Notes under the pieces: model-generated
The model's input: only the letters and a program-made list of their open reading frames with translations
Database searches by the model: none
Told to the model about the DNA's origin: nothing
In this document: in pieces, positions 2,828 through 60,069 of the stretch
Layout of the letters: each line of letters opens with the position of its first letter
Position numbering within the stretch: the first letter of the stretch is position 1
Program-made: the position numbers and the translations under genes
Assembly: GCA_903904885.1 (NCBI GenBank)
Contig: CAIVED010000024.1
Coordinates: 1-64,000, forward strand
Direction of reading: 5' to 3'
Length of the DNA: 64,000 nt
Source of the DNA: an uncultured archaeon
Lineage (GTDB): Archaea; Nanobdellota; Nanobdellia; Woesearchaeales; CAIVOO01

Positions 2828-4873
2828 CTACAGCCTATACCCCAGTTCCTTCTTTGCGAATATGAATGCCGCAATAAGCGAGACCATGTCCAATGCATTG
2901 TGCTCGAGAACAGGGGAGATGTCTGCATCACAGAAAATATACTGTCGGTATATGACCGGCACCTGCTTTCCCGCTATGTCCTCTCTTTCTGAGCCGCAGA
3001 GAAGGTCTATCTGTCCGAGTTTTGAGTTGCGTAGCCTAAGTTTTTTTCTTGCGCTGATAAAGCACTGTGTATAAACATCTATATTTGGCTCCATTTTGGG
3101 AATTTCCAAAAGATGCGCTGTGCATCTGCTTTTTATCCTTTTCAAATCAAATGACCTTCCGTTGTATGTTACAATAATATGATGGCCGTTGATTTTATCG
3201 TTTAGGTGTTGCAGAAGAGCGGCTTCCTCGAGAGGGTTTCTTGCAAAGGCAATGTCTATCCTGAGGCTGCGGTTATCCCTGTAGGCCAGGCCTGCGGATA
3301 TTATTTGGTCATTCATGCCAAGCCCTGCCGTTTCCAGGTCAAGGAACAGTTTGTCTCTCTGCCACGCCGATGCCATGTTTTTCAGGACATACTCCAGTGT
3401 TTTTGATTCGCCTAAATCAGTTATTGGAATGCGGTAGAGCGAGAAAAGTCCTTTTTCATTGCTTTCTGTCTTCCCTTTATTCCCGAAAACTTTTGGGGTT
3501 TTTATCTTAATCTCGCTTTCACCGCACAGCATTCTGTTTATTTCGCGGATTATGTGCAGGGCATATTCCAGCTGCTTTCTCTGGCAGTCTTTCAGCAGGA
3601 GATGGCTTGAGTATGCCATTTTCTGGTAGAGGTCAGCCAGCTGTTTTGGCGCCAATGGCAGTTTTATCCTGCCCTCGCAGAGTTCCAGGCCTGTTTCAAG
3701 GCTGTCTTCAAAATCCCTGCTGTTGAATGTGCCTATGCCCTCCTCAAGAAGGCTGTCTTCCATGCCCCTGACAATTTTTTCATGGCCGTGGATAACAGCA
3801 ATCCTGGAACTGACTATTCTCCTCTCATTTCCTTTTACCAGATAAAGATTCCTGCCTCCCCCAAGCTGTTTTTTTATCTTTTCAACAGTTGCTTTTCTTT
3901 TTGTTTTTGCAACCTTCACTTCAGCAACAGAATCATTTACTATTATGTCTGGGAGGAAGTATTCCCCGCGGTCGTCCTCAACACAGGACCCGTTCGAGCT
4001 TGTAACTTTTAAAATAGGCAGGGGAAACGTTTCCCTGAACTTTTCGGTCTGTCTTTTTCCCTCAGGATCCAGTTTCATGGTCATCATGAGAAGCATTCTT
4101 GTAAGCTGCTCACCCAATGTGCCTATTTTTTTGACCTTTCTCTGGGTGGAGGTTACAAACTCAGAGGAGTTTATGCCTGTTAAATTTGATATTACCTCTG
4201 TTTTAGTGGTGCCAAGATGGTAGATTTTGTCATTTTTCCGCAGCAGGTCCACGAATCTAAACAGCAGCCTGTGATTTTCTCTCAATCCCCCTGCGGGGGA
4301 GATGTCACCCTCTTCGCGGTATATTTGGAGCAGGTCGCTCTTTATTTTTTCTGTGTTTGTTGATTTTACAGAAACCTTGCGCGATATGAGGTCATAAAGC
4401 GGCGGGGAGCCAGGGAACATTTCATGAAGTTCGGGGTACAGCCCGTTTACTAATTCTCTTACAGAAGGCAGGCTGTTTCTGTTGATTTTTCTTGTGTATG
4501 CATCATGCTCCTTCCTGTGCCATTCCTGTTTCCTCAGCTCGGATATTGCAGGCAGTTTGATATTCTGGCCTCCATACAGCCCTATAACTTTATTCAATGG
4601 GTAGGCTTTCCTGAGAGATTCTTGAAAAGTTTCCTGTGTTGTTGTAACATAGCCTGATTTCCATCCCGCAGCTGCAAGAAGATTTGTTACATTGTGGCCA
4701 AAGCCGTTTTTAACTGCAAGTTTTTCCAGGCGGGTTGATATGCCCCATTTCCCTTCTTTTCTTGTTTTGGTTGTAACGCAGACAGATTTGGTTTTATCTG
4801 CGAAACCCGCTTTAAGCATAAGTTCATCTACTTCTTTTAGGACAATATCCTCAAGCTTTCCCTCTTCACCCAC
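2828..4873 (-). CDS. Two-domain nuclease: PD-(D/E)XK-like plus YprB-like RNase H-fold exonuclease
   Basis: 681 aa from the GTG at 4873, which overlaps the dnaG stop by 8 nt and is preceded by gagggtg; a longer frame to 4900 would need a TTG start. The C-terminus (about 508-670) has the YprB-type DEDD signature: DLET (Exo I), TYNGRSFDLKRI (Exo II) and EHNALDMVSL (Exo III). The middle (about 250-330) contains PD-(x8)-EVK in FLPDIIVNDSVAEVK, preceded by a helix with GEQL, which fits a PD-(D/E)XK nuclease core. The N-terminal 240 residues are helical and unassigned. Coupling to dnaG suggests a role in DNA replication or repair. The individual domain calls are by motif; the combination is unusual. 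Confidence 0.7.
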   Translation of the reverse strand: MGEEGKLEDIVLKEVDELMLKAGFADKTKSVCVTTKTRKEGKWGISTRLEKLAVKNGFGHNVTNLLAAAGWKSGYVTTTQETFQESLRKAYPLNKVIGLYGGQNIKLPAISELRKQEWHRKEHDAYTRKINRNSLPSVRELVNGLYPELHEMFPGSPPLYDLISRKVSVKSTNTEKIKSDLLQIYREEGDISPAGGLRENHRLLFRFVDLLRKNDKIYHLGTTKTEVISNLTGINSSEFVTSTQRKVKKIGTLGEQLTRMLLMMTMKLDPEGKRQTEKFRETFPLPILKVTSSNGSCVEDDRGEYFLPDIIVNDSVAEVKVAKTKRKATVEKIKKQLGGGRNLYLVKGNERRIVSSRIAVIHGHEKIVRGMEDSLLEEGIGTFNSRDFEDSLETGLELCEGRIKLPLAPKQLADLYQKMAYSSHLLLKDCQRKQLEYALHIIREINRMLCGESEIKIKTPKVFGNKGKTESNEKGLFSLYRIPITDLGESKTLEYVLKNMASAWQRDKLFLDLETAGLGMNDQIISAGLAYRDNRSLRIDIAFARNPLEEAALLQHLNDKINGHHIIVTYNGRSFDLKRIKSRCTAHLLEIPKMEPNIDVYTQCFISARKKLRLRNSKLGQIDLLCGSEREDIAGKQVPVIYRQYIFCDADISPVLEHNALDMVSLIAAFIFAKKELGYRL

Positions 4874-6653
4874 TTTCAGCACCCTCTTTGTCAAGCACAA
4901 TCCTCTGTGCAGTAAGCTCTAGCGCCAGCTGGCCATTGCCTGATTTTTCTGCAGATATTATTCTCATCTCCAAATCATGTGCTTGCTTTTCAAAAAAGCT
5001 TTTTCTCAGGGCGCTGATGCAATGGCTGTCATCGCTGCGTCTTCTTGCAATCTGCGCAAAAAGCCTGGCGGAATTTTCAGGGTTCATCTCCACACTCATT
5101 GAAGAGCAGTAGCCCAAAAATGATTTCTCCAAATCATCGCAGGTTACGCCCTGCCATAAAGGAAGGTCGCTTATTGCATCCTCCGGCCGCAGGAGAATAT
5201 TGTCGATATCATTGCTTCCTGTTAAGAATTCAAAAAACAGCTCCCTTTCAATTGCGCTGAACTGATCAGGTCTTAGCCGGCTTCCTGCAGATCTTCTTTG
5301 TGTCGGGTTGCGGGCAAGGTGCGAGAGGACCGCAAGCTCAATGTCTGCCTGGTCGCGGGAACGCTGGGGGGATTTGGACATTCGCCATGACCTGAAGTCT
5401 GCTCTCACAATCCTTTCTTCTATTCCAAATCTGTTGGCTATGCTGTTCAGGTATCTGTCCTTTAGCAGCAATGATTGCGCAGAATAAACTGTAGGATACA
5501 GAAAAGTCCTTATGGTTTCAGTAACCTCATCCGGCTGCCTTGAATTGCCAGCCATATCCAGCTGGAAATCAATGAGAAATCCCGGGTCCGATATTATTTC
5601 GCGGAATCTTTCCCTGTCCGAAATAATAAAAACATCAGGATCATTTCCCTCGGGCAGCTGGGCCACAAGGGCCTGAAGCCCGTGCTCAAGAAGTTTTCTC
5701 CCGCAGGTTACTGTTTTTTCCCTCCCTGCATTATCCGGGTCAAGGCAGATTACGCATCTGCTGGTCAGCCTTGCAATCGCGTCGACATAGCTGTCTGTCA
5801 GCTCAACACCGGCAAAGGCAACAACATTTTTGAACCCTTCCTGGTGCGCGACAATTGCATCAAAATATCCCTCAACAAAAACCGCAAACCTCTGTTTACT
5901 TATTGCTCTTGTGGCCTCGTAAAGCCCGAATAGCGTTTTTTCTTTATTGTAAAATGGGGTGTTTATGGTCAGAAATTTTGGAGCATCTTTCTGGTCAGGA
6001 AACATCCTGCCTGAGAATCCGACAGTCTGGCCCCTCCTGTCCCGGACAGGAATCATTATCCTTTCCCTGAACCGGTCAATCAGCGTTCCCCTACTGCTTT
6101 CCTGGGAAAGCCCGAATGATATCAGCTGCTCCCTTGTTAATCCCTGATTTGAAAGATATCTTGTGAGGGGGTCCCAGTCTCCTGAAAAAGGGGAATATCC
6201 TATTCCCCAGCTTTCTATGGTTTCATCCTTCAGCCCTCTTTTTGGCCCTTTGAGATATTCAATTGCTTCCCCTGTAAGATTCCTCCTGTAGAATTCTGAT
6301 GCGAGTTTGTAGGCATCGTAATAATTCTGCTTTTTTTCTGTTGTCCCTGACCATTCCCTTTCAAAATTTATGCCTGCCCTTGCGGCAAGCCTTTCAGCGG
6401 CCTCTACGAAAGACAGTCCTTCCATCTTCATCACGAAACTGATTGCATTGCCGCTTTCGCCGCAGCCAAAGCACTTGAAATATCCCTGTCCAGGATGAAT
6501 CTTGAAAGAAGGCGTTTTTTCCTTGTGAAATGGGCAAAGGCCCTTGTAATTCTGACCGTCCTTTAAAAGATGGACATAATCCTCAACAACTTCCTGAAGG
6601 CTAACCCTGTCTCTTATCTCACCAATGACCTGTTCTGGAATTCTCCTCCTCAT
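4866..6653 (-). CDS. dnaG: DNA primase, bacterial DnaG type
   Basis: 595 aa. An N-terminal CHC2 zinc finger is complete (C40, H43, C61, C64 in CPFHKEKTPSF and FKCFGCGESG). The catalytic core with RFRERIMIPVRD follows, then a TOPRIM domain with FVEGYFDAI (Glu261) and CLDPDNAGREK (Asp305/Asp307). This order is that of bacterial DnaG, which makes RNA primers for replication. Canonical archaeal DnaG lacks the CHC2 finger. The C-terminal 170 residues are divergent and may be the helicase-interaction domain. It is the first gene of a two-gene minus-strand unit with the nuclease and shares a 55-nt divergent promoter region with the gene at 6709. Transfer from bacteria is an inference. Confidence 0.9.
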   Translation of the reverse strand: MRRRIPEQVIGEIRDRVSLQEVVEDYVHLLKDGQNYKGLCPFHKEKTPSFKIHPGQGYFKCFGCGESGNAISFVMKMEGLSFVEAAERLAARAGINFEREWSGTTEKKQNYYDAYKLASEFYRRNLTGEAIEYLKGPKRGLKDETIESWGIGYSPFSGDWDPLTRYLSNQGLTREQLISFGLSQESSRGTLIDRFRERIMIPVRDRRGQTVGFSGRMFPDQKDAPKFLTINTPFYNKEKTLFGLYEATRAISKQRFAVFVEGYFDAIVAHQEGFKNVVAFAGVELTDSYVDAIARLTSRCVICLDPDNAGREKTVTCGRKLLEHGLQALVAQLPEGNDPDVFIISDRERFREIISDPGFLIDFQLDMAGNSRQPDEVTETIRTFLYPTVYSAQSLLLKDRYLNSIANRFGIEERIVRADFRSWRMSKSPQRSRDQADIELAVLSHLARNPTQRRSAGSRLRPDQFSAIERELFFEFLTGSNDIDNILLRPEDAISDLPLWQGVTCDDLEKSFLGYCSSMSVEMNPENSARLFAQIARRRSDDSHCISALRKSFFEKQAHDLEMRIISAEKSGNGQLALELTAQRIVLDKEGAESG

Positions 6654-8733: not shown

Positions 8734-8785
8734 ATTCTCTTATTCTCTCTGCTCTTTATAAATTTTTATTAAATAAAATTCCGTT

Positions 8786-8950
8786 TGCCGGTTCTTGCAT
8801 TAGGCTTCAAGTTTTATCTGCTTCTTCTGCAGGAGTGCCATGCAAGGAGAAAGTATTAGCTGTCAAGCGCAGCGCAGACAGCTTAATGCAGGCCTGGCAA
8901 TCAATGCCGGCAGAAAAAGCAAGAGTCGGAGTTAAGGACTGCGCAGAAAA
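8786..8950 (+). ncRNA. Dispersed structured element, copy A
   Basis: One of four related copies (the others are at 15651, 22577 and 59847). Helix P1 pairs TGCCGG (8786-8791) with CCGGCA (8907-8912). P2 pairs CTTGCAT with ATGCAAG. P3 is an independent hairpin AGCTGTC/GACAGCT. The block GCAGGCCTGGCAATC is followed about 45 nt later by TTAAGGACTGCGCAGAAAA, whose GGACTGC can pair imperfectly with GCAGGCC (P4), crossing P1. A TATA-like ctttataaat lies 25-30 nt upstream. It lies between two minus-strand genes and is transcribed, if at all, from the opposite strand. No ORF is supported. Confidence 0.6.
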
Positions 8951-8984
8951 TATTTTATCAATGGTAAATGCAAGAAAAAAGATT

Positions 8985-12218: not shown

Positions 12219-12737
12219 TTAATCATTTATCATATTTTGCTCTCCAAACTCTCCGGAAACAGCGTTTTCCCGCTGTTTTTGGCTTATTTTCTCGTTTTTC
12301 AGCACCCGTTGGAGCTCCTGGACGTATTTCTTGGTTATTTCCAGGTGATTCTGGATGTTTAGCACTGCTTTTTCAAAAGCAGTCTCAACAGTGGCTCCGT
12401 TTAGCTTGTAGCCGATGATTACCTTGCTGTCTTTGATATAACTCGTTTTTACGATTACATTCAGCGCCAGCCATCGCTTAAGGTAGTCATACATGGTTTG
12501 CCTTGTAATGCCCGCAAAAACACCCATTTCCTCGACGGTCATCACAGATGATTCCGGCTTCTTCTCCCTGTTGGACATCTTCATTCTCTCGTACAGCTCG
12601 AGGAAAACCTTGTGCATGTTCTCGGTAGATCCTGTCTTCCTCGGCTCCAGGCCCATTCTTGCCAGGATAACCCTTGCAAGCTCTTCCCCTGTCGGATTAA
12701 GCCCTGTTTCCTTGTTGGTAAGTATAATCTTAGTCAT
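12219..12737 (-). CDS. HTH transcriptional regulator
   Basis: 172 aa. A central helix-turn-helix (MTVEEMGVFAGITRQTMYDY, then LKRW; about residues 66-90) is followed by a wing-like beta segment (VIVKTSYIKDSKVIIGYKLNG) and a helical C-terminus likely for dimerisation. A Shine-Dalgarno GGAGG sits 8 nt before the ATG, with a roughly 30-nt leader after a TATA box ctatttaaac. That TATA box lies between inverted repeats of GACATTTGT (12780-12812), so autorepression is likely. Probable target sites also lie downstream of the gene (12045-12186). Confidence 0.72.
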   Translation of the reverse strand: MTKIILTNKETGLNPTGEELARVILARMGLEPRKTGSTENMHKVFLELYERMKMSNREKKPESSVMTVEEMGVFAGITRQTMYDYLKRWLALNVIVKTSYIKDSKVIIGYKLNGATVETAFEKAVLNIQNHLEITKKYVQELQRVLKNEKISQKQRENAVSGEFGEQNMIND

Positions 12738-12779
12738 GTTCAGCCTCCGATCATTTCGATCACTGTAATGTATTATTCA

Positions 12780-12812
12780 GACATTTGTTTAAATAGTTCA
12801 CAACAAAATGTC
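12780..12812 (-). promoter_or_regulatory. Promoter with inverted-repeat operator for the HTH regulator gene
   Basis: GACATTTGTT (12780-12789) and AACAAAATGTC (12802-12812) are near-perfect inverted repeats. They flank and overlap the TATA-like ctatttaaac that would drive the minus-strand HTH gene starting at 12737. Binding by its product would block TBP access. Confidence 0.6.
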
Positions 12813-13223
12813 CAGTGAATAGTGTAAACTATTTAATTTTTAATTAAAATTTTTGATTAAAACAAGGAAAACAGCCTCTGATAGCCAAAATAATGCCAAG
12901 CATATACCTAGTTTAAAAAGCGGGGGCTGATTTTAGGGTATTTTGCCTTAATCTAACCCTCGCTTGAAATCTGTCGGGAAAATCCCAGTCATAAAGGCAT
13001 TTTCTCCAAATAGGCCAGCAAATGCCCTTTTTCAGCCTGTCCACCCTGCTTTCAGAACAACAAAGGGTTGAACTTTTTTGTCGGCATAATCCTTTACACG
13101 TCGGCATTATCCAAACAAATTAGTGCATTTTGCCAGAATGAATCCTTTTGTGTCAAATCAATAGAAATCAAGTTCACCTGGGTTTGTAAGGGAAAATAGC
13201 TGAAAGGTATACTGATTTAGGAT
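12813..13223. other. Gene-free stretch with a short direct repeat
   Basis: About 410 nt without a supported gene. A 64-codon minus-strand frame (12913-13107) has no ribosome binding site and a biased composition and is rejected. A direct repeat GTCGGCATAATCC (13080-13092) / GTCGGCATTATCC (13100-13112) with 20-bp periodicity is visible. An AT-rich block near 12828-12860 includes gtaaactat, echoed at 13985. Confidence 0.3.
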
Positions 13224-15601: not shown

Positions 15602-15650
15602 GTTTGTTTAAATCATCATAAAATTATTTTTCTATTACAAAAATAAACCA

Positions 15651-15811
15651 TTTGCTGGGCAGGCCTTAATTCGGATGTTAGTTTAAGTTGTTTGCCGCGA
15701 TTGCCGGGCTTGCGTTAACCAGCCTTCGGCAGGCATTACTAATTTCTTGCGCATGGCAGGCGAGCATAAGAAGCGGGATAAGTATGGATGTTAATGCAAG
15801 AACCAGCAAAC
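15651..15811 (-). ncRNA. Dispersed structured element, copy B
   Basis: On the minus strand. P1 is GTTTGC (from 15811) paired with GCAAAC (ending 15690). The conserved TTCTTGCATTA, CGCTTCTTATGC, TGCCATGCGCAAG and GCAAGCCCGGCAATC blocks are present, as is the terminal ATTAAGGCCTGCCCAGCAAA (15651-15670). P3 is a short GCC/GGC hairpin. A TATA-like ctatataagt overlaps the stop codon of the upstream PAC2 gene, about 28 nt before the element, so it may have its own promoter. It fills the convergent gap between the surface-protein gene and PAC2. Confidence 0.6.
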
Positions 15812-15837
15812 GGAATTTTGTACGGGGAAATAAAGAA

Positions 15838-22548: not shown

Positions 22549-22576
22549 TTTCTTTATCTTAACAAATAAAAATATT

Positions 22577-22736
22577 TTTTCTGGGCAAGCATTAAAATTT
22601 CTTCTTTTTATTCAAAGTTGCGCATGATTGCCAGGCTTGCTTTTAACTTGCATTCTGCAAGTAATAATCTTTTCTTGCATGGCAATAATGCAGAAGAAGC
22701 AAATTAGACATCAAGCTTAATGCAAGAACCAGCAAC
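22577..22736 (-). ncRNA. Dispersed structured element, copy C
   Basis: Minus strand. P1 pairs GTTGC with GCAAC (22617-22621). The conserved TTCTTGCATTA, GCTTCTTCTGC, TGCCATGCAAG and CAAGCCTGGCAATC blocks are present. P3 is ACTTGCA/TGCAAGT with a GAA loop. P4 pairs GCAAGC with GCTTGC of the terminal TTTAATGCTTGCCCAGAAAA block (22577-22596). It lies 30 nt beyond the stop codon of the L35Ae gene, so it could be a 3' extension of that mRNA. No clear TATA box precedes it. Confidence 0.6.
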
Positions 22737-22765
22737 CGTGTTTTTGTTCAAAGAAACTAATAGAA

Positions 22766-59809: not shown

Positions 59810-59846
59810 TTGTTTTTGATTCATTTCTCGTAAATAAAATTCCGAG

Positions 59847-60026
59847 TATCTACTTCTCGCATTAGTCCTGATGTTCCATCCGCTTCTTCTGCTCTAGTGT
59901 CATGCAAGAAATAAATAATATGTATGAACTGCAGTTGATTGCTCTCTGCACATATTATTTATTGCAGCTCTGGCAATCGAGCCAGATATCAGATAATAAA
60001 ATAGTGCCTAAGAGCTGCACCAGAAA
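59847..60026 (+). ncRNA. Dispersed structured element, copy D
   Basis: Begins about 38 nt after the stop of the membrane-bound regulator. P1 pairs TATCT (59847-59851) with AGATA (59984-59988). Conserved CTCGCATTA, GCTTCTTCTGC, GTCATGCAAG and CTCTGGCAATC blocks. P3 is the longest of the four copies: AAATAATATGT pairs perfectly with ACATATTATTT (11 bp). P4 pairs GCAGCTC with GAGCTGC. It ends with the CTAAGAGCTGCACCAGAAA block (to about 60026). No own TATA is clear. Confidence 0.55.
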
Positions 60027-60069
60027 TCGTTTTATTTTTGAAAATCGTAAGTATGCCTTCACCCCAATA

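Follow-up and report, generated by a model that had tools for sequence, protein, structure and literature searches.

A dispersed structured repeat between gene ends in a Woesearchaeales genome, and the double hairpins nested within it

Introduction

Four intergenic stretches in a piece of archaeal DNA of 64,000 nucleotides (the window, meaning the whole stretch that was analysed) share ordered sequence blocks, and the arms of their helices differ from copy to copy and stay complementary. A sequence-only reading of the window described them as four copies of a structured element that it did not recognise as a known family, and that might be a new ncRNA class or a palindromic mobile repeat. The locus therefore raises the question of how large this family is, whether its pairing exceeds chance, and whether its fold is better understood as RNA or as mobile DNA.

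Copies, extent and distribution of the repeat

All four copies are present at about the places first proposed, and the ordered blocks are common to them (Table 1). A covariance model of the kind that the sequence-only reading had called for returns them with E values of 4.7e-36, 4.9e-36, 2.8e-33 and 5.5e-27, and finds no fifth copy in the 64-kb window, where the next independent match stands at E 0.16. For the genome as a whole (1.31 Mb, 44 contigs, 98.7% complete), however, four is an undercount. BLAST with copy 1 alone finds more than 40 places, and a genome-wide covariance model built from 32 copies locates about 74 distinct sites, of which 60 score above 90 bits; these were counted after removal of opposite-strand matches of the same copies and amount to 1.07% of the genome. 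The copies are spread over many contigs, so that they cannot be put down to one contaminating contig. Without inserts, the unit measures approximately 178-188 bp, beginning at an A-rich edge, nAAAATtCCGTTTGCTGG, and ending at a T-rich one, CCCAGAAAAnGGnTTTTTT; the elements as first drawn were thus correctly placed but slightly short of the ~180-bp unit.

Table 1. Positions in the window of the four repeat copies, their helices and the conserved blocks of copy 1
Feature	Position	Strand	Basis	Remarks
Copy 1 of the ~180-bp repeat	8774..8960	+	covariance model, alignment	
Copy 1, helix A	8792-8800/8840-8848			
Copy 1, helix B	8858-8864/8877-8883			AGCTGTC/GACAGCT
Copy 1, helix C	8888-8894/8936-8942			GCAGGCC/GGACTGC
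Copy 1, conserved block 1	8790..8802	+	alignment	GGTTCTTGCATTA; 5′ arm of helix A
Copy 1, conserved block 2	8819..8830	+	alignment	TGCTTCTTCTGC; apical loop of helix A
Copy 1, conserved block 3	8836..8848	+	alignment	TGCCATGCAAG and next bases; 3′ arm of helix A
Copy 1, conserved block 4	8893..8902	+	alignment	around CCTGGCAATC; 3′ of the 5′ arm of helix C
Copy 2	15641..15820	-	covariance model, alignment	between convergent genes (463-aa ORF and PAC2-family protein)
Copy 2, helix A	15794-15802/15744-15754			
Copy 2, helix B	15728-15734/15718-15724			GCCTGCC/GGCTGGT
Copy 2, helix C	15707-15713/15659-15665			
Copy 3	22567..22746	-	covariance model, alignment	between convergent genes
Copy 3, helix A	22720-22728/22672-22680			
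Copy 3, helix B	22656-22662/22646-22652			ACTTGCA/TGCAAGT
Copy 3, helix C	22634-22640/22585-22591			
Copy 4, divergent subtype	59836..60036	+	covariance model, alignment	after an HTH (DUF7343/MarR-like) gene
Copy 4, longer helix B			direct reading	AATAAATAATATGT / ACATATTATTTATT; alignment columns misplace this helix
Copy 4, helix C	59964-59970/60012-60018			GCAGCTC/GAGCTGC

Partial copies also occur. Those reduced to the helix A half, with their blocks kept (L036:3070-3178, L091:1596-1705, L094:1594-1695, L095:1646-1799 and L096:1624-1767), are commoner than those reduced to the 3′ half (C40:18 and C14:34026), which makes the A module a possible core unit. At L092:1649-1857, a truncated copy directly adjoins a tRNA-Ile(GAT) gene that lies on the other strand. 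Elsewhere in the genome, tRNA matches of 119-168 nt (L019:1751-1918, L038:964-1103, L031:1849-1973 and L076:2263-2381) point to long tRNA introns, and archaeal family matches include LonB, TrmB, PAC2 and archaeal RNase P. The genome is probably a reduced one of DPANN type. Within the window, a bacterial-type DnaG primase (CHC2 zinc ribbon, DNAG_N and Toprim) is encoded in this archaeal genome at 4866-6653 (-), adjoining an RNase_H_2 protein at 2828-4900.

The view that the element belongs to no known family is supported, since Rfam has no match to it even at E<=1. At that threshold Rfam yields nothing in the window; in ten copy-bearing loci it reports tRNA and, beyond that, just two weak matches that overlap tRNAs; at the gathering score, 40 further loci give only tRNA and archaeal RNase P. 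The covariance model matches none of 39 relatives, of which two belong to the same family, and, under stricter filters, none of 280 other genomes of the class, which belong to other genera. No high-copy family is seen in two same-family genomes over the 137 kb searched, which is part of those genomes. The suggested check for further copies in related genomes has accordingly returned none among those searched, although the family is still plainly real within its own genome. A corrected sequence pattern that fits 34-35 of the 74 own copies has zero matches in IMG/VR; its sole match among 84,980 species, on a Thorarchaeota contig in apparent coding sequence and with no model match, is attributed to chance. 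Such collection scans may leave out records very near the window's own genome, and "restricted" here means not seen outside this genome, in a searched set that holds no same-genus genome.

Fold, covariation and age

Pairing was assessed in 44 insert-free copies over alignment columns 19-27/68-78 (helix A), 90-96/123-129 (helix B) and 135-141/185-191 (helix C). Together, these helices are paired in 95.4% of 1002 cells, against 86.0% in a control in which the 3′ letters were dealt anew over 500 rounds, and none of the 500 shuffles reaches either the observed pairing or the observed number of cells changed on both sides, 114 against a shuffled 37.1. Covariation beyond chance, the proposed test of the element, is thus found for the three-helix set. 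When the arms are slid by 1-3 columns, pairing falls to 28-48%. A model-free mutual-information ranking places the pairs of helices B and C at the top, supporting both without any prior choice of structure and, along with the pairing test, bearing out the description as a structured repeat.

The individual helices differ in what they reveal. Helix A (TTCTTGCAT/ATGCAAGAA) is nearly invariant and carries little information. Helix B, which corresponds to the P3 arms noticed in the four copies, covaries strongly over the 44: each of its seven pairs shows changes in both partners, with up to five standard pair types. Helix C (GCAGGCC/GGCCTGC) covaries between two main states, GC..GC and TT..AA, which may go back to few underlying events. 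Helices A and C are supported here and were absent from the sequence-only reading, while its P1 helix (GTTTGC/GCAAAC and equivalents), complementary-looking in four copies, does not survive the larger set: it is paired in 67.3% of cases against 69.2% in shuffles, and its covariation is no better than that of shuffled or slid arms. The two ends of the unit form an imperfect inverted repeat (AAAATcCCgTTTnCTGG / CCAGnAAACGGGATTTT in the consensus). Their pairing as a closing helix that covaries was rejected by eye, because changes in the 5′ arm have no counterpart at the 3′ end.

Identity between copies reaches at most 83%, with a median of 69%. The copy tree is star-like, with terminal branches summing to 9.8 and internal ones to 1.7, and support of at least 0.9 at 4 of 41 nodes. 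Conservation is bimodal across columns, 30% of which are at least 95% identical, compared with 0.1% under one uniform rate. A family still copying would leave close pairs, and in a dead one the blocks would decay evenly. The combination of long independent branches and conserved blocks therefore suggests constraint in place, as judged within one genome. The best reading of these comparisons is an apparently old family with a constrained core, a recent burst being disfavoured. Palindromic elements of Methanocaldococcus are reported to be protein-coding, according to a title cited in PMC2229807. Here, a protein-coding repeat was rejected on account of one-base indels and the lack of three-base periodicity in column identity (0.84, 0.80 and 0.82 in the three phases).

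Placement between gene ends

Gene context, derived from the uncurated calls of a simple codon-usage gene caller, is convergent for 36 copies, tandem for 33 and divergent for 2 (71 classifiable, three unclassified). Relative to gene gaps in ~350 kb of the same genome, this skew has p=2e-13 per gap and p=2e-6 per bp. The distance from stop codon to element, measured in 33 cases on each of the two sides, has medians of 19 and 22 nt, and this stretch, read outward from the gene, is 51% T and 7.5% G on both sides, compared with 30-34% T after other stops. Archaeal transcription terminates at U-rich runs. By composition, the repeat is flanked on both sides by T-rich tracts resembling those of archaeal termination, although these could be part of the genes instead of the element. 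The same siting is also expected from purifying selection against insertions near promoters. A literature search found no archaeal convergent-gene repeat.

Nested double hairpins

About 20 repeat copies (16 by a strict pattern, approximately four more by eye) hold a nested double hairpin, an insert of ~50-60 bp exemplified by CGCAAGAAAA-tip-TTTTCTGCGCGCAGAAAA-tip-TTTTCTTGCG. With shorter-linker variants included, the genome total is about 25 such inserts. Three clear double hairpins lie outside any copy (C6:1630, C12:12836 and C24:95873), and another, at C10:30936, lies 31 bp past one. Since most of them fall within repeats that constitute only 1.07% of the genome, nesting is strongly preferred. 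The insertion point varies among the apical loop of A, the 3′ arm of A, the loop of B, the A-B linker and positions beside C. By eye, inserts in ATGCAAGAA, compared with empty copies, apparently carry a doubled GC, and those in the loop of A are apparently plain insertions. At the C12 site, a tRNA-like gene (L123, ~12650-12960, minus strand; acceptor ACGTCAG/CTGACGT, anticodon stem CGACC/GGTCG, T arm GCGGG/CCCGC) appears by eye to have a ~200-nt intron that holds the double hairpin; neither ARAGORN nor Rfam calls this gene.

The inserts vary freely in sequence while remaining paired. In 37 double hairpins from several genomes, the 74 hairpins have 65 distinct tips. The middle pair of the three-base stem foot in the first hairpin is G-C in 18, A-T in 9 and C-G in 6, making 33 of 34 Watson-Crick, a proportion that is the same at the foot of the second; the search had demanded no foot pairing, only at least one closing pair in one tip. 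Within the order, double hairpins occur in 18 of 353 genomes, the window's own included, and in 13 of 220 genera, with 1 to 20 pattern matches per strand in each carrier; several of the 18 are known by a single or one-sided match, and a reversed control pattern has zero matches in the 353 genomes. In one carrier from another family (G037), the double hairpin adjoins an unrelated structured repeat, AACAGTTCGGACTATT..AATAGTCCTTAGC (L149-L159), whose own hairpin differs among copies with pairing kept.

Transposase searches covered Y1_Tnp, TnpB-type and DDE_Tnp_1 proteins. Y1_Tnp (PF01797, RAYT) is absent from the window's own genome, control searches having given matches, and Y1 transposase is also absent from 9 of 15 other double-hairpin carriers, which implies that a RAYT-like mover is not required. 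The own genome likewise yields no TnpB-type zinc ribbon. It has two DDE_Tnp_1 genes (L143 and L144, at C24:86610 and C27:74486), 69% identical at the DNA level, and the ends of both loci are unrelated to those of the repeat.

Comparison with known structured repeats

In anatomy, copy number and siting, the repeat matches the broad class of bacterial structured intergenic repeats, a catalogue of which reports a shared predicted fold in 57 of 92 families (PMC2267715). The enterobacterial ERIC/IRU elements (127 bp; PMC2229807, PMC2267715) belong to the same size class and are likewise dispersed between genes, as imperfect palindromes with a conserved fold; their copies number in the tens to hundreds, and a role at mRNA 3′ ends or in stability has been proposed, ERIC being reported to affect mRNA stability (PMC2229807). 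ERIC, however, is one long stem-loop with target duplication (PMC2229807, PMC2267715), whereas the present repeat has three separate helices, no duplication found and an archaeal host, and is likened to ERIC by anatomy, with no sequence relation seen. In its described features, it also resembles the Caulobacter/Brucella CIR (long arms with a linker, phylogenetically conserved fold, intergenic placement; PMC2229807), which differ in having a GANTC methylation motif, and Bacillus bcr1 (similar size with a 167-bp model, intergenic class, predicted common fold; PMC2267715), which is bacterial. RepRanger reports REPs in archaea, in a text that does not mention DPANN (PMC12306157).

The nested double hairpin is closer to REPIN/REP sequences with RAYT (PMC3116915, PMC8266576) than the main element, whose three unlike helices set it apart from them: it consists of two short hairpins in inverted arrangement whose pairing is kept by compensatory stem changes, as in REPIN spacers, and each hairpin has one extra, possibly bulged, base. 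It differs in the absence of Y1/RAYT described above. Mitochondrial double-hairpin or repetitive hairpin-forming elements (PMC2800124) offer a further likeness, being short and located both between genes and inside other sequences; in the organellar elements of sponges it is the loops that differ and the stems that are conserved, whereas in the present double hairpin the upper stem pairs themselves vary freely. As target duplication, a cognate transposase and RAYT were not found, the repeat is not filed as ERIC, REPIN or MITE, and any function given to it by analogy with the bacterial repeats is putative.

Origin and possible role

We favour, at a probability of about one half, an ERIC/REPIN-like dispersed structured repeat that spread long ago and has been kept between gene ends, where it would be a putative boundary. 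The family may have spread through a hairpin-recognising or replication-based process; with no target-site duplication and no enzyme with matching ends found, its mobility is read only from dispersal. It would then have long been still, and the survivors would be those copies that lay between two tracts of transcription termination. There, the fold and core blocks may have been kept as a two-way gene-end boundary or binding site, aiding termination or protecting the 3′ ends of flanking transcripts; we infer this last step from the T-rich siting and the constrained fold.

A selfish or inert repeat is an alternative that we consider unlikely, yet the best of the remainder. Its paired changes would arise by template switching or hairpin correction, with no selection on structure, and its siting would reflect only the loss of harmful insertions. 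Template switching during replication is documented to create and maintain perfect stems, yielding compensatory changes (PMC8794818), and such changes also occur commonly in the spacers of REPINs, a form of mobile DNA (PMC3116915), so covariation alone is no proof of RNA. The wholesale yet complementary change of double-hairpin tips is in keeping with this explanation, as are G.U and A.C cells in the helices (37:20), which are nearer equal than in clear structured RNA. It leaves unexplained, unless conversion between copies is limited to them, why blocks outside the covarying stems are at least 95% identical in copies that are ~69% identical.

Genuine small RNAs or 3′-UTR RNAs, whose conserved boxes would act in trans or on the upstream message, are a less probable account still. 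The boxes, the three helices with covariation and the T-run at the 3′ edge would suit them, and the G.U excess (p=0.033 over 69 copies, the cells not being independent) leans weakly toward the given strand. Behind tandem genes, 20 copies are sense and 13 antisense, an excess in the expected direction that is not significant (p=0.30). Folding energy z values against dinucleotide shuffles do not differ between the strands (-1.8 and -1.7), the strand tests (G.U/A.C ratio and folding z) give no clear RNA signature, the upstream flank profile of the copies contains no clear promoter consensus, and Rfam has no match. The covariance model also matches the opposite strand of its own copies. Given these reverse-strand matches, 3′ siting in either orientation, equal folding and the mild G.U excess, the mobile-repeat half of the original alternative fits better than the ncRNA half.

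A MITE, the non-autonomous partner of a DDE or Y1 transposon that is still active or was lost recently, is very improbable: the imperfect terminal inverted repeats and the two DDE_Tnp_1 genes would favour it, but there is no near-identical pair of copies, no Y1_Tnp or TnpB-type zinc ribbon, neither DDE locus has the ends of the repeat, and target-site duplications show no excess over shuffled flanks at k=3-9, a test that a fixed TA or TTAA would escape.

Concluding remarks

The dispersed gene-end repeat that we favour would take on wider meaning if, as we propose with considerable reserve, it represents a new archaeal class of gene-end element, a selected bidirectional structured boundary at dozens of loci, accompanied by an order-wide, structure-only mobile double hairpin. 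In this tentative joint proposal, the double hairpin has the form C-N-C-A-AGAAA-tip-TTTCT-G-N'-G followed by its inverted counterpart, is moved by a non-Y1 mechanism, prefers structured repeats and has stem bases that are free as long as they are paired. The repeat itself is a high-copy structured family whose paralogous copies, in a probably reduced archaeal genome, show unusually clear covariation. It warns that covariation alone cannot certify RNA, and the same covariation among paralogues makes it testable whether such families are inert repeats or selected gene-end elements. The double hairpin, which 18 of 353 genomes carry and whose stem bases are nearly unconstrained, provides a clean system for studying how hairpin pairing is upheld and how hairpins move without a recognisable transposase.
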